From assembly GCA_016178705.1 (NCBI GenBank), contig JACOST010000031.1:248001-312000 (forward strand): DNA of 64,000 nucleotides, written 5' to 3'. Origin of the DNA: Deltaproteobacteria bacterium (GTDB taxonomy: Bacteria > Desulfobacterota > Binatia > HRBIN30 > JACQVA1). The notes beneath the pieces were generated by a model that ran no database searches, had not been told where the DNA came from, and saw only the letters and a list, made by a program, of their open reading frames with translations. Positions 20,522-26,464 of this stretch are shown piece after piece. The translations under genes and the position numbers were made by a program. Positions within the stretch are counted from its first letter, which is position 1; every line of letters begins with the position of its first letter.

Positions 20522-21955
20522 TCAGAACGCGAGCTGAACCCGGCTCTCGATAACGTATTCGTTCGGTCGATTTCCTTTCTTCGCACCGTCGGCGAATTCG
20601 GTCTGGGCGTAGTCCAGCACCACCTTGACGTTCTTGTTCAGGTACCAATTGCCACCGAGCACGAACTCAGTGGCCCGATGTGCCGACTTGGTCTTGTCGG
20701 CAAAGCCAGTCGAGTACACGTCGGAGTCGATGTCGATCTCGCCATAGCGCCCAGCGAGTTCGAACGCACCTGGTCCCCAACCACCGTCGTCGAGCGGCTG
20801 GAACGGGCGGAACGGCGTCACGCCCTTGTACGACGCTGGCTCGCCCGTCAGGACATAGGAGGCCGCCACTTGCCACGCATCGTTGCCGAACGTGGCAGTC
20901 TTCTTGTCGCGTTTGTATTCCTGCGATTCGTAGACGTACTCGAAGAGCGCGCCGAATGGGCCGACGTAGTAGTAGGCCTGCGGTGACACGCGCGACCGTT
21001 GGCCGGAGGCAATCACCGGCCCGAGATTCTTGGTGGGGTCGGTCGCGTTGGTGACCGCGCCGTTGAAACTAAAGAACGTGGCCTGTCCCGTGGACTTGTA
21101 AGTCGGGACATCGGGAGTCGAGGTGTTACCACCCTGACGGCCGTACGAGCCGGCGACGCCAACCCCGAGACTCTTCAGTGCGCTGAGGTCTGTGCTCGTG
21201 AAGGGTAACGCGAACACGCGCCCGACGAAGTCCTTGTCGTCGTTCGTGTCGTTGACGTTGGTCGGGTTCAGATTGTCGGGCACGCCGTTGACGATGCCGA
21301 GCTGATAGCCGACGGCACCGTCGAATACGTCGCCGAAGAACTGTACACCGATGTCGCGGTTCGGCAGCAGATTGGTGGGCAGGCCGCGCTCCACGAACAT
21401 GAGCGACGTAGCGGATTGCAGCCGCTCGAGACCAACCGGCGGTTTGAATTTGCCGAAGCGTAGCTTGGCCTCGGGGAAATAGTTGAAGTCCAGATAAGAA
21501 TCGTAGATCTGGACGCTACTTCCGCCGAAATCGGGCAAGATGCGGAAATCGAAATACTTGAAGACGGTGCCCTGCAAGTCGAGCCGGGCGCGCCGGATAA
21601 GGAACTGGTTGGTGTTCTGGTTGGCTTCGTCGTTGACAAAGAAGCGTCCGTCGAACTGCGTGTAGGCGCCGATTCTCAGCTTGAAGCGGTTGTCGGCCGA
21701 GCTGATATAGAAGCCGTCTTTCCATTGCGCCAATGGGTTGCGGATCTGGTTGTCGATCTGCACCTCATGTTGGCGCGACTCGTGGTTGAGGCGGTCGACT
21801 TGCTCCTCCAACTCCTTCAGTCGACGCTTTACCTCGTCTGGTGTGGGATCGGGTGGTGAGCTGTCTGCTGCCGGCGCGGTCAGCGCCGCGGCCAGCACCC
21901 CGGTCAGGATGATGGCTACAATCCACCACCGGCGGCGAACGGATTGGGTACGCAT
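20522..21955 (-). CDS. OprO/OprP-family porin
   Basis: 477-residue outer-membrane porin. A signal peptide (residues about 8-30) is followed by a coiled-coil stretch (VKRRLKELEEQVDRLNHES) and then a 16-strand-type barrel of the phosphate-selective porin O/P family. Typical features are IGAYTQFDGRFF, FLIRRARLDLQGTVFKYFDFRI, the FGKFKPPVGLERLQSA stretch and a C-terminal Phe (RVQLAF). AAGGAG precedes the ATG. It sits downstream of the sulfate transporter and yezD on the same strand, separated by a hairpin, so it may serve sulfate or another anion instead of phosphate. Substrate is inference. Confidence 0.9.
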   Translation of the reverse strand: MRTQSVRRRWWIVAIILTGVLAAALTAPAADSSPPDPTPDEVKRRLKELEEQVDRLNHESRQHEVQIDNQIRNPLAQWKDGFYISSADNRFKLRIGAYTQFDGRFFVNDEANQNTNQFLIRRARLDLQGTVFKYFDFRILPDFGGSSVQIYDSYLDFNYFPEAKLRFGKFKPPVGLERLQSATSLMFVERGLPTNLLPNRDIGVQFFGDVFDGAVGYQLGIVNGVPDNLNPTNVNDTNDDKDFVGRVFALPFTSTDLSALKSLGVGVAGSYGRQGGNTSTPDVPTYKSTGQATFFSFNGAVTNATDPTKNLGPVIASGQRSRVSPQAYYYVGPFGALFEYVYESQEYKRDKKTATFGNDAWQVAASYVLTGEPASYKGVTPFRPFQPLDDGGWGPGAFELAGRYGEIDIDSDVYSTGFADKTKSAHRATEFVLGGNWYLNKNVKVVLDYAQTEFADGAKKGNRPNEYVIESRVQLAF

Positions 21956-22306: not shown

Positions 22307-24349
22307 TCAAATTGTGTAGTCTTGCACGAACACACGCACTCGGCGGGGAAAGACGAAGACGCGGTCTCCCGGCCGCAGATTGAGCCGCGCGTGCTGTTCC
22401 TGGCCGATCTCGACGTTGATGTTGATGCCGAATTCCTGGGCGGCGACCTCGACCTTCACCGCCGCGCCGGCGGCGTTGATGCGCACCACTTCTGCTTTCA
22501 GACTGGAGTTGCCGCGCGGGATGCGGTCGATCTCCAACTCGTGCGGCCGCACGTAGGCGGTGACCGGCTTCGCCGGGTCATGCGGAGAGCCCGACGGCGT
22601 GAGATCGAGACCGAATTTGGCAAAGCCTTCGGCCACGCGACCATGGAAGACGTTGACGTTGCCGAGGAAGTCCATGACGAAGGCATTCGCCGGATGGTCG
22701 AACACTTCCTGCGGGCTGCCTTGCTGCTCGATGCGGCCGCGATTCATCACCACGACGCGATCGGAAACCTCAAACGCTTCCTCTTGGTCGTGCGTGACGA
22801 ATACGCTGGTGACGTGGATCTCATCGTGCAACTTGCGCAGCCATTGCCGCAGCTCTTGGCGCACCTTGGCGTCGAGCGCGCCGAAGGGCTCGTCGAGCAG
22901 CAGCACCTTGGGCTCGGCTGCCAAGGCGCGGGCGAGCGCGACGCGCTGGCGCTGACCGCCCGAGAGTTGCGACGGCGCCTGTCGTCCGAGATCGTCGAGC
23001 TGAATGAGGCGCAACAGTTCGTGCACACGCTCTTGAATCCGCTTCTCCGGCCACCGCCGCACGCGCAAGCCGAAGGCGACGTTTTCAAACACGGTCATGT
23101 GGCGAAACAATGCGTAATGCTGAAACACGAATCCGACGTTGCGATCGCGCGCCGAGCGACTGGTGGCGTCTTCGTCCTGGTAGTGGATGGCGCCCTCGTC
23201 GGGCATGTCGAGACCGGCAATGATGCGGAGCAATGTTGTTTTACCTGAGCCCGACGGTCCAAGTAGCGCCACCAAGGACCCATGCGGTACTTCGAGGCTG
23301 ACGTCGTCGAGTGCGACGAAGTCACCGAAGTGCTTCGTGATGTTCTTGACCGAGATCCCCACGCGGCGATCCTCCTCGCTGCGAGGTACATCGTCGATCG
23401 AGTCCTCCGGCGATTTCAGATGCAGACGCGGAGTGGACGGAATCGGCCCTGATGGTTGGTTGAGGGGACTTCCGCGCAAGCGACTCTCGAGCTCGCGGCG
23501 GGTCTGCCACTCGAGCGCCGTCTTCACCGCCAGCGTCACCAGCGCCAACGACGACAGCAGCGACGCAAGGGCGAAGGCTCCAGGCATGTTGTACTCCTGG
23601 AATAGCTTCTCCACGCGCAGCGGCATGGTGTCGGTCTGACCGGTTATGTGGCCGGAGACCACATATACCGCACCGAACTCGCCCATCGCGCGCGCGTTGC
23701 ACAAGATCACGCCGTACAGCAGGCCCCACTTGATGTTCGGCAGAGTCACTCTCCGGAACATCTGCAACGCCCGGGCGCCGAGACTCACCGCCGCGATCTC
23801 CTCCTCGGTGCCGATCGCCTCCATCAGCGGAATCAGCTCGCGGGCAACGAACGGAAACGTCACGAATGCGGTTGCGAGAATCAGCCCGGGGGTAGCGAAG
23901 ATGATCTTGATGTCGTGCTCGCGGAGCCACGGCCCGAGATAGCCTTGCAGGCCAAAGATCAACACGAAGATCAGCCCGGCAACCACCGGCGAGACGGCGA
24001 ACGGGAGATCGATCAGGGCGGTCAGGAGCGTACGGCCGCGAAAGCGGAAGCGGGCGATCAACCAGGCGGCGGCGACGCCGAAGACTACGTTAAGCACAAC
24101 TGCCACCGGAGCCACGCGCAGTGTGAGCAGGATGGCACTTGTCGTGTCGGGGTCCGCAAACAGACTGTTCCAGTACACGCCGGGCCCGCGCCGAAAGGCC
24201 TCGTAAAATACATTGACGAGCGGGATGACCACGAGCACGCCCATCACCAGCATGGCGGCGGTGATCAACGTCCAGCGGATCGCGAAGGGATCCTCCTGCG
24301 CGCGCCGCTGCCCTACTTTCGCGGTGGTGACCGCAAGTTCAAGCGACAT
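22307..24349 (-). CDS. Fused sulfate ABC transporter permease-ATPase (CysW-CysA)
   Basis: 680 residues joining two normally separate subunits. Residues 1-290 are a CysW permease with about six helices and the EAA loop ([23 protein letters not shown]). A charged 50-residue linker (about 290-345) follows. Residues 345-680 are a CysA ATPase with Walker [10 protein letters not shown] near 363, signature LSGGQRQR near 460, Walker [13 protein letters not shown] near 483 and a C-terminal TOBE-like sulfate regulatory domain. The start overlaps the cysT stop by 11 bp. No stop or frameshift lies at the junction. Catalytic motifs are all intact, so the fused chain should be active. Confidence 0.93.
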
Positions 24350-25163
24350 TTCTCTTGCTCCAGCGCTCCAGCATGTTGATCAGTACCAACATGGTCAGTG
24401 AGATCGTCAGCAGGACGATGGCGATTGCCGCGGCTTCGGGGTAACGGAACTCCTCCAGCGCCGCCACGATCAAGACCGGGGCGATCTCGGTCTTGTACGG
24501 CATGTTGCCCGACACGAAGACCACCGAGCCGTACTCGCCGAGCCCGCGCGCAAAGGCGAGGGCGAAGCCGGTCACGATCGCCGGAAAGAGTGTAGGCGCA
24601 ATGACGCGGACAAAGGTTTGCACGCGCGTCGCGCCCAAGCATGCCGCCGCTTCCTCCAGCTCCGCCTCGAAATCTTCCAAGATCGGCTGCACGGTGCGGA
24701 CAACGAACGGCAACCCGATGAAGATCAACACCAGCACGATGGCAAATCTCGAGTACGCTCCCTCAATGCCGAGCGGCACGAGGAATTGGCCGAGCCAACC
24801 GCTTTTCACGTACAAGCTGGAGTAGACCAAGCCGGCAACGGCAGTGGGAAGGGCGAACGGAAAATCCACCAGGGCGTCGACGACGCGCTTGAAGGGGAAC
24901 TCGTAGCGCACCAGCACCCACGCCACCAACATTCCGAGTACAGCGTTCGCGGCGGCGGCGATCAGCGACGCACCGACGGTGAGCGTGTAGGCGGCGCGGG
25001 CCCGCGGCGTCCACACCGCCGCCCAAATCTGATCCAGCGACAACGACGCGGCCTTGAGAAAGCACGCCGTCAGTGGGATCAGTACGAGTGCGCTGAGGTA
25101 GAAGAGGGTGTACCCGAGGCTCAATTGAAACCCTGGCAAGACGCGCCGATTGACGTCGATCAT
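24339..25163 (-). CDS. cysT: Sulfate ABC transporter permease CysT
   Basis: 274-residue inner-membrane permease with six predicted helices and the EAA-type loop ([21 protein letters not shown]) that docks to the ATPase. The subfamily pattern [19 protein letters not shown] is typical of CysT/CysU. It lies 37 bp after sbp and overlaps the next gene by 11 bp. It should pair with the CysW half of the fusion, giving a transporter with two permease halves and presumably two fused chains or one fused chain plus another ATPase; the stoichiometry is unresolved. Confidence 0.94.
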
Positions 25164-25200: not shown

Positions 25201-26205
25201 CTACGCCCCTGGCTTGTAGATGCTGTCGAAGATCGCGCCATCGACGAAGAACTTCTTGTAGGCTTCGTTCCAATCCTTCGCGATCGCCGTGATTGGGAAG
25301 CGTGTGATCTCCTTGAACGTGGCCGCGTGCCGACTAAGCGCCTCTGCATTGATGGGCCGGTAGTAGTTCTTGGCAATGATCTCTTGACCCTCGGGGCTGT
25401 AGAGAAAGCTCAAGTAGGCCTCGGCCGCTTCGCCCGTCCCCTTACGCTTCACATTGGCGTCGACGACAGCGACCGGCGGTTCCGCCAGCACACTGATCGG
25501 GGGGTAGACCAGCTCCAGCTCGCCGCCAGCCTCCGCCAGCTCCAGGTATGCCTCGTTCTCCCACGTGAGGTGGACGTCGCCGATCTTTTTCTGCGCAAAG
25601 GTTGTGGTCGATCCGCGTGCGCCGGAGTCGAGCACCGGGGCTTGCCTGTACAGTTTGGTGGTGAAGTCTCTCGCCTCCTGCTCGGTGCCGCCGCGTTCGA
25701 TGACCGAGCCCCACGCGGCGAGAAAGCTGAACTTGCCGTTGCCGGAGGTCTTCGGGTTTGGTGTGACGATTTCGATGCCCAGCTTGACGATGTCGGGCCA
25801 GTCCGTGATGCCCTTTGGATTGCCCTTGCGGACGACGAACACGATGGTCGAGGTCCATGGGACAGAATTGTTCGGGAAGCGCTGATCCCAACCCTCGCTG
25901 ATGAGCCCAACCTTGCGGATGGCATCGGTGTCCGGCCACATCGCGAGTGTGACGACATCGGCATCGAGCCCGTCGACGACGGCGCGTGCTTGCGCGCCCG
26001 AGCCGCCGTGGGACTGTTTGATCGTCACGATCACGCCCTTCTCTTTGGCGTAGGCCGAGCTAAACGCCGTGCCGATGTCGCGCAACAGCTCGCGCGTCGG
26101 ATCGTACGAGACGTTCAGCAGCTCAATTGATTTCGCATCGTCCGCGCTGGCGGCCGTTGCCGCCGTGATCGCGGTTATGATTGCGAGGATAGCTGACTTC
26201 CACAT
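25201..26205 (-). CDS. sbp: Periplasmic sulfate-binding protein
   Basis: 334 residues with a signal peptide (residues 1-22). It has the family blocks LLNVSYDPTRELLRDI, KQSHGGSGAQARAVVDGLDADVVTLA and the signature NPKTSGNGKFSFLAAWG (residues about 150-170), which supply sulfate-binding residues in Sbp/CysP. AAGGAG is spaced correctly before the ATG. It is the first full-length gene of the sulfate operon and sits 73 nt after the leader terminator, so its expression should depend on readthrough. Thiosulfate as alternative ligand cannot be excluded. Confidence 0.95.
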   Translation of the reverse strand: MWKSAILAIITAITAATAASADDAKSIELLNVSYDPTRELLRDIGTAFSSAYAKEKGVIVTIKQSHGGSGAQARAVVDGLDADVVTLAMWPDTDAIRKVGLISEGWDQRFPNNSVPWTSTIVFVVRKGNPKGITDWPDIVKLGIEIVTPNPKTSGNGKFSFLAAWGSVIERGGTEQEARDFTTKLYRQAPVLDSGARGSTTTFAQKKIGDVHLTWENEAYLELAEAGGELELVYPPISVLAEPPVAVVDANVKRKGTGEAAEAYLSFLYSPEGQEIIAKNYYRPINAEALSRHAATFKEITRFPITAIAKDWNEAYKKFFVDGAIFDSIYKPGA

Positions 26206-26277
26206 GATTCTTCTCCTTTGGTTCTCCGGCCCAGACGCAATCGTCCGAGCCCAATGCTTTTCGGGTGATCAAAACGA

Positions 26278-26310
26278 AAAGGCCCGGGAGGCATTGCCTC
26301 CCAGGCCTTT
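26278..26310 (-). terminator. Intrinsic terminator in the leader of the sulfate operon (attenuator)
   Basis: 15-bp stem (AAAGGCCTGGGAGGC with GCCTCCCGGGCCTTT) and 3-nt loop, followed by TCGTTTT on the minus strand. The one non-Watson-Crick position is a U-G wobble on the minus transcript but an A-C mismatch on the plus transcript, supporting the minus orientation. It lies before the sulfate genes, not after a gene, as an attenuator should. Confidence 0.8.
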
Positions 26311-26334
26311 CAAGTCGTGCGTTTCAGTTCGGGA

Positions 26335-26427
26335 TTAGTGCGAGACAATGAACGCAGGGCGACTGCAAGCGCGGGAGACCTCCCAGGCCTTGGTACAGCA
26401 ACAACAGGTCGCAAACCGTACGTTCAT
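26335..26427 (-). CDS. Cys-rich leader peptide of the sulfate operon
   Basis: A 30-codon ORF beginning MNVRFATCCCCTKAW and ending SH. Codons 8-11 (26395-26406) are four consecutive Cys codons; a fifth Cys is codon 21. The stop TAA lies 25 nt before the terminator hairpin. The start lies about 8 nt after a candidate -10 element, so the mRNA may be leaderless; no Shine-Dalgarno sequence is present. Poly-Cys upstream ORFs that sense Cys-tRNA supply are known before sulfur genes in mycobacteria. Here the arrangement suggests ribosome stalling at the Cys run when cysteine is short. Translation is unproven. Confidence 0.72.
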   Translation of the reverse strand: MNVRFATCCCCTKAWEVSRACSRPAFIVSH

Positions 26428-26431
26428 TGCC
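26344..26431 (-). ncRNA. Folded leader RNA region with alternative hairpins
   Basis: The segment is closed by an 11-position stem: GGCAATGAACG (26421-26431) with CGTTCATTGTC (26344-26354). Inside are GCGAC/GTCGC and a GGGA-GGTC-TCCC hairpin (26373-26384). The GTCTCCC element (26373-26379) can instead pair with GGGAGGC of the terminator 5' arm (26296-26302), giving a candidate antiterminator. The 13-mer AAGGCCTGGGAGG occurs at 26379-26391 and again in the terminator arm at 26297-26309. The outer stem overlaps the leader ORF start codon. Confidence 0.6.
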
Positions 26432-26435
26432 GGGC

Positions 26436-26464
26436 AAAATGCCCAAGTGCACCTTTCGTGTCAA
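26436..26464 (-). promoter_or_regulatory. Candidate sigma-70 promoter of the sulfate operon
   Basis: Perfect -35 TTGACA (26459-26464), 17-bp spacer and -10-like CATTTT (26436-26441). Predicted transcription start at about 26427-26430, at the leader ORF's AUG. The -10 match is only moderate. Confidence 0.55.

Follow-up and report, generated by a model that had tools for sequence, protein, structure and literature searches.

A putative cysteine-sensing transcription attenuator on a leaderless poly-Cys reading frame upstream of a sulfate uptake operon in the Binatia

The window, by which we mean the whole 64,000-nucleotide stretch of DNA analysed here, carries on its minus strand a sulfate uptake operon preceded by a candidate cysteine-responsive leader. 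In the direction of transcription the features are:

26459..26464, minus strand: -35 element TTGACA, read from the sequence and compared across the aligned leaders
26436..26441, minus strand: weak -10 element CATTTT after a 17-nt spacer, from the sequence and the comparative promoter table
26335..26427, minus strand: putative leaderless leader ORF of 30 codons, MNVRFATCCCCTKAWEVSRACSRPAFIVSH and a stop, with homologous ORFs at 24 other loci
26395..26406, minus strand: putative sensor, the four tandem Cys codons TGT TGT TGC TGT, codons 8-11
26381..26390, minus strand: segment 1, AGGC.TGGGA, 5' arm of the anti-antiterminator, from hairpin prediction with segment 2
26384-26380, minus strand: GGGAG motif, from the sequence
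26367..26379, minus strand: segment 2, GTCTCCCGCGCTT, partner of either segment 1 or segment 3
26379-26373, minus strand: GTCTCCC motif, from the sequence
26296..26311, minus strand: segment 3, GAAAGGCCTGGGAGGC, 5' arm of the terminator and 3' arm of the antiterminator
26302-26296, minus strand: GGGAGGC motif, from the sequence
26277..26292, minus strand: segment 4, 3' arm of the terminator, then the T-rich tail CGTTTT
26213..26218, minus strand: Shine-Dalgarno sequence AAGGAG of sbp, from the sequence
25201..26205, minus strand: sbp, sulfate ABC transporter substrate-binding protein (TIGR00971, 362 bits; NF008022)
24339..25163, minus strand: cysT, sulfate permease (TIGR02139, 359 bits)
22307..24349, minus strand: cysW-cysA fusion, permease and ATPase, 680 aa (TIGR02140 over residues 24-284, TIGR00968 over residues 332-567)

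Unlike the fused gene of the window, cysW is a separate ORF in one relative (L130). A porin-like gene of 477 aa with a weak ExtI match follows the window operon (20522-21955, minus strand), and porin or outer-membrane-protein genes also lie 3' of poly-Cys leaders at L258 and L262, which may point to an outer-membrane channel tied to sulfur uptake.

The promoter-like pair TTGACA-N17-CATTTT followed by an ATG, the 30-codon ORF with cysteine at codons 8-11 (26427-26335) and an sbp with its own ribosome site (AAGGAG at 26218-26213, start at 26205) are all present as the preliminary description gave them, its positions being correct and only its ascending listing at fault, as the features run on the minus strand. 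The ATG at 26427 lies 8 nt past the -10 hexamer, itself a poor match at which a strict promoter scan gave no promoter. The intrinsic terminator (26311-26277) has been kept with an amended stem, counted at 16 pairs rather than 15, with a 3-nt loop and T-rich sequence after the stem. The 12-nt TGYTGYTGYTGY string is by itself not unusual in the window genome, with 71 occurrences against 72 in a reversed control; TGY runs are thus not rare as DNA, and the case rests on context and conservation. What stands above chance is the combination, kept in relatives, of an ORF with an in-frame Cys run, a constant spacing between it and TTGAC, and a terminator after it.

The distribution of this arrangement was followed with a covariance model of ten leaders, run on the order and on the 148-genome class with strong matches read individually, and a second model (R2) was built from 23 leaders. 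Covariance search and inspection gave 25 convincing leaders in the class, in seven families (f1, f3, f4, f7, f9, f13 and f17). Nineteen lie 5' of sbp and one directly 5' of cysT (G074); two precede cysK-cysE (G011, G081), one an outer-membrane-protein gene and then metY (G081), one a gene named porin-like from sequence reading only (G105) and one, the least certain of the loci, an ACP-like gene (G072). The identities of cysK, cysE and metY are from NCBIfam, read from L124 and L262. A close sbp is found in nine of the 15 genomes of the order, eight of which have the leader arrangement 5' of it, and two further named relatives from the class (L012, L013) carry it as well. The ninth, G005, has no such leader upstream of sbp. 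About 270 nt 5' of its sbp (L010) is a Cys-containing ORF, MTAETISGTERRVAEAACCCRVPSSSPPCRWTCRQAA, with a Shine-Dalgarno-like sequence and a TAG stop inside the inverted repeat GGCGGC-aTA-GCCGCC. Across the class 19 of 48 sbp genes have the leader, and 21, which together form a group of higher score, lack a Cys ORF in the roughly 420 nt upstream, a few of these loci ending at contig edges.

Other candidates were set aside. Matches outside the class, in a 395-genome sample of the phylum, were weak and lacked a Cys ORF, being ordinary GC-rich terminators, as were four matches within it (L125, L140, L141, L143); none of the further model matches in the window's own genome had a Cys ORF. A search of that genome for the TTGAC-start-Cys pattern found no second convincing locus, and its three best cysK-type genes have no upstream Cys leader. 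Permissive Rfam matches over the window (ar35, uc_338 and others) were at chance level or covered the terminator hairpin only. One possible further leader, not counted here (L139, G093:C23:13082-13196), begins with GTG, spaced from a TTGACG as a leaderless start would be, and encodes a Cys-x-x-Cys peptide beginning VSFVRTERSCTRCLDD; a terminator and an MgtC-like gene follow.

A Cys-rich leader ORF is present at all 25 loci. Its Cys codons exchange synonymously (67 TGT and 31 TGC in 23 ORFs), which indicates that the amino acid is kept and not the DNA. Outside the Cys run and a segment encoded by segments 1 and 2, A-R/W-E-A-S, the peptide varies in sequence and length; that motif recurs after the Cys run because the 1:2 hairpin lies within the coding frame. 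Segment 1 starts 4-10 nt past the last Cys codon, a near-fixed distance. The -35 TTG is present in all 23 aligned leaders, as TTGAC in 20 and TTGCG in three, two of these from family f13, in which the second G105 copy also reads TTGCGC. The promoter spacer is 17 nt in 16 of the 23, and the start codon (ATG, or GTG in family f7) falls 6-13 nt past the -10 hexamer, with a distance of 7-9 nt in 16 leaders. By a criterion independent of the covariance model, TTGAC stands at promoter-plus-leaderless distance from an in-frame ATG or GTG in 20 leaders, where shuffling of the 60 nt upstream gives an expected 0.27. The leaderless start that the preliminary description suggested is supported in that all 23 keep a fixed promoter-to-start spacing and none has a Shine-Dalgarno-like site before the leader start; the lack of room for a normal 5' UTR is strong comparative evidence for leaderless initiation.

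Downstream of the Cys run four segments recur, 1 being GGCCYGGGAG-like and 2 CTCCCGGSC-like, with 3 in the sense of 1 and 4 in the sense of 2, so that 1:2 would form an anti-antiterminator, 2:3 an antiterminator and 3:4 the terminator. The antiterminator shares the 5' arm of the terminator and the two pairings are mutually exclusive; the choice of partners first proposed for GTCTCCC, between GGGAG and GGGAGGC, is likewise retained as an exclusive pairing in 18 further sbp leaders of the class, and the same 18 keep the Cys codons and the terminator. A loss of Cys codons or terminator among homologous leaders, which the preliminary description would have taken as refuting, was looked for and not seen in them. 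For 3:4, 92% of cells are paired, six pairs have changed on both sides and none of 500 shuffles scores as high. For 2:3, 92% of cells are paired against at most 62% when the segments are slid, its covariation score is matched in one of 500 shuffles, and segments in their native combination form stabler duplexes than in swapped combinations (-20.2 versus -18.3 kcal/mol; 19 non-redundant leaders, p = 0.0003). Matched changes in 2:3 include GGCCCGAGAGG with CCTCTCGGGCC in L005 and L007, and CGTGAGG with CCTCACG in L136. Eight leaders have an A.C mismatch in the terminator at the A of segment 3, an A that in most leaders finds a U partner in segment 2; keeping such a mismatch is expected if segment 2 constrains segment 3. 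The 1:2 hairpin is predicted in most leaders at -7 to -14 kcal/mol; it has 77% of its cells paired, compared with 54% at most for slid segments, and shows no covariation beyond shuffling in the aligned leaders.

Fold predictions suggest how these pairings might compete. In the unbound nascent RNA of the window, before segment 4 is made, 1:2 is predicted at 0.39 and 2:3 at 0.04; holding the RNA single-stranded as far as 10 nt beyond the final Cys codon raises 2:3 from 0.04 to 0.97, and once the RNA is complete the terminator prevails. When all leaders are pooled, free nascent RNA at equilibrium is predicted to favour 2:3 (0.67) over 1:2 (0.04), so the real decision would have to be kinetic, with 1:2 forming first during transcription as in classical attenuators. 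This switching between fold states is a model. The claim that a stalled ribosome would cover GGGAG stands in part: a ribosome whose A site holds the last Cys codon spans about 10 nt downstream and would cover the outer part of segment 1, GGGAG being abutted and not fully covered. A ribosome halted earlier, at the first Cys codon or codons, is predicted to leave segment 1 unblocked.

We therefore arrive at a ribosome-mediated transcription attenuator that would sense charged tRNA-Cys on a leaderless leader ORF, a reading we hold to be very probable. Transcription would start at or beside the leader ATG, and a 70S ribosome would presumably load at the RNA 5' end without a Shine-Dalgarno sequence. 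With ample Cys-tRNA it would pass the Cys codons, 1:2 would form behind it and then 3:4, and polymerase would stop before sbp. When Cys-tRNA is scarce the ribosome would stall on the Cys run just 5' of segment 1 and block 1:2, the emerging segment 3 would be captured by segment 2, no terminator would form, and transcription of sbp-cysT-cysWA would raise sulfate import. This proposal draws on the anatomy of the leader, its conservation in seven families, covariation of 2:3 and 3:4, the promoter-start distance and the cysteine genes it precedes, and supports the interpretation first offered; stalling, kinetics and the physiological signal we infer. The copies before cysK-cysE and the metY-linked copy match the predicted cysteine signal. 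Besides the points on 1:2, equilibrium folding and early stalls given above, it counts against this reading that G005 has sbp but no such leader and that none was seen in the second sbp clade of the class.

Conserved poly-Cys ORFs and a structured leader could in principle be explained in other ways. The stalled ribosome might expose the site at which translation of the first gene begins, the hairpin being a nonfunctional terminator; leaderless poly-Cys ORFs reportedly work by translational attenuation in Mycobacterium smegmatis (Canestrari et al. 2020, cited in PMC9031893 and PMC13236596), and in several members of the class another Cys-containing ORF lies closer to sbp. Such a mechanism is hard to reconcile with a strong GC stem and T-rich tail that are kept and covary in the 23 aligned leaders, with the sbp ribosome site of the window lying about 60 nt beyond the terminator, or with leader-to-gene distances of about 20 to 540 nt among relatives, and we think it very improbable.

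A structured leader with a terminator would also suit a metabolite riboswitch or a T-box that terminates transcription, the Cys ORF being incidental. No Rfam family reached the gathering threshold over the window, however, and the Cys run is the feature common to the peptides, with synonymous codon exchange and a near-fixed distance to segment 1, which leaves this explanation with still less credit. No more can be given to a functional Cys-rich small peptide, for example one that binds metal, with a terminator providing partial polarity only: the ORF is conserved, and peTrpL is a precedent for a leader peptide acting in trans (PMC7298713), but sequence and length vary outside the Cys run and A-R/W-E-A-S, and no Pfam or NCBIfam family matched the leader peptide.

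Beyond the leader itself, a second, longer ORF lies between the leader terminator and sbp in L127 and L126 (f17), L134 (f9), and L137 and L142 (f13), with Cys-containing tails shortly 5' of sbp that end, for instance, in SRCCRLASCRRAA, HTCLCCPC or GCLCCR before the stop; in L126 and L127 a short GC inverted repeat contains or adjoins its TAG stop. This second ORF looks like a tandem Cys-sensing uORF, perhaps a translational one. It is conceivable, at somewhat less than an even chance, that transcription attenuators on leaderless poly-Cys ORFs control a cysteine regulon of several operons throughout the class, that some families have in addition a translational attenuator on a second Cys ORF ahead of sbp, and that leaderless initiation forms part of the sensor in this lineage. 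Two Chloroflexota loci (L054, L056) have a conserved short ORF starting MHLYSV, 100-200 nt 5' of sbp, whose Cys runs lie at its very end (HIACCGCR and TACCCRCY, each followed by the stop); a terminator is not evident, and the ORF resembles actinobacterial cys leaders.

Were the attenuator to operate as predicted, leaderless poly-Cys sensing would extend beyond the Actinobacteria and be coupled to transcription termination, and a leaderless leader ORF could serve a classical four-segment cysteine attenuator. The aligned leaders yield a ready covariance model and allow operons for sulfur starvation to be predicted in uncultured soil bacteria; leaderless initiation in the lineage becomes testable with a single reporter.

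Canestrari et al. 2020 (Mol Microbiol 114:93) are said to have described leaderless poly-Cys ORFs that attenuate translation in Mycobacterium smegmatis. The leaders described here share with the mycobacterial system an uninterrupted run of Cys codons in a short ORF ahead of sulfur genes, Cys pausing as the proposed sensor and occurrence at several operons; a leaderless start, too, is predicted here from promoter spacing and the lack of a Shine-Dalgarno site. The lineages are unrelated, and whereas the mycobacterial ribosome, once stalled, is reported to expose a sequestered ribosome-binding site and to act on translation (cited in PMC9031893 and PMC13236596), with no place for an intrinsic terminator, the conserved, covarying terminator and competing antiterminator here point to transcription. 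Cys-run short ORFs have also been predicted before actinobacterial cys operons (Seliverstov et al. 2005, PMC1262725), where, unlike here, the Cys codons cluster towards the end of the ORF, close to the stop, and terminators were not detected. Closer in architecture is the uORFC-8-2 motif (RNA Biol 2021, PMC8632094), a predicted ribosome-mediated Cys-codon uORF with an intrinsic terminator; it occurs only before cysS in the Rhodobacterales, and its two Cys codons, at positions 14-15, fall within the first stem, whereas the present leaders are probably leaderless, have 2-5 Cys codons 5' of the first stem (codons 8-11, outside it, in the window) and precede sbp, cysK and metY. Leaderless leaders with Rho-independent terminators are known from S. 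meliloti trpL (PMC7298713) and from LeuL2, TrpL1 and IlvL of Streptomyces lividans (PMC8079986), which start the ORF at the 5' end of the transcript and sense Trp, Leu or Ile/Val/Leu in place of Cys. With attenuators of the trp and his type the present leader shares a leader ORF, here Cys-rich, an intrinsic terminator and an exclusive antiterminator using the terminator's 5' arm. The open-access literature gave no report of a leaderless poly-Cys ORF combined with a terminator, or of such a leader in this lineage or regulon, in agreement with the preliminary description. The predicted mechanism is classical and its sensor known, while their combination and its taxonomic spread, as read from the comparison of leaders, are new.
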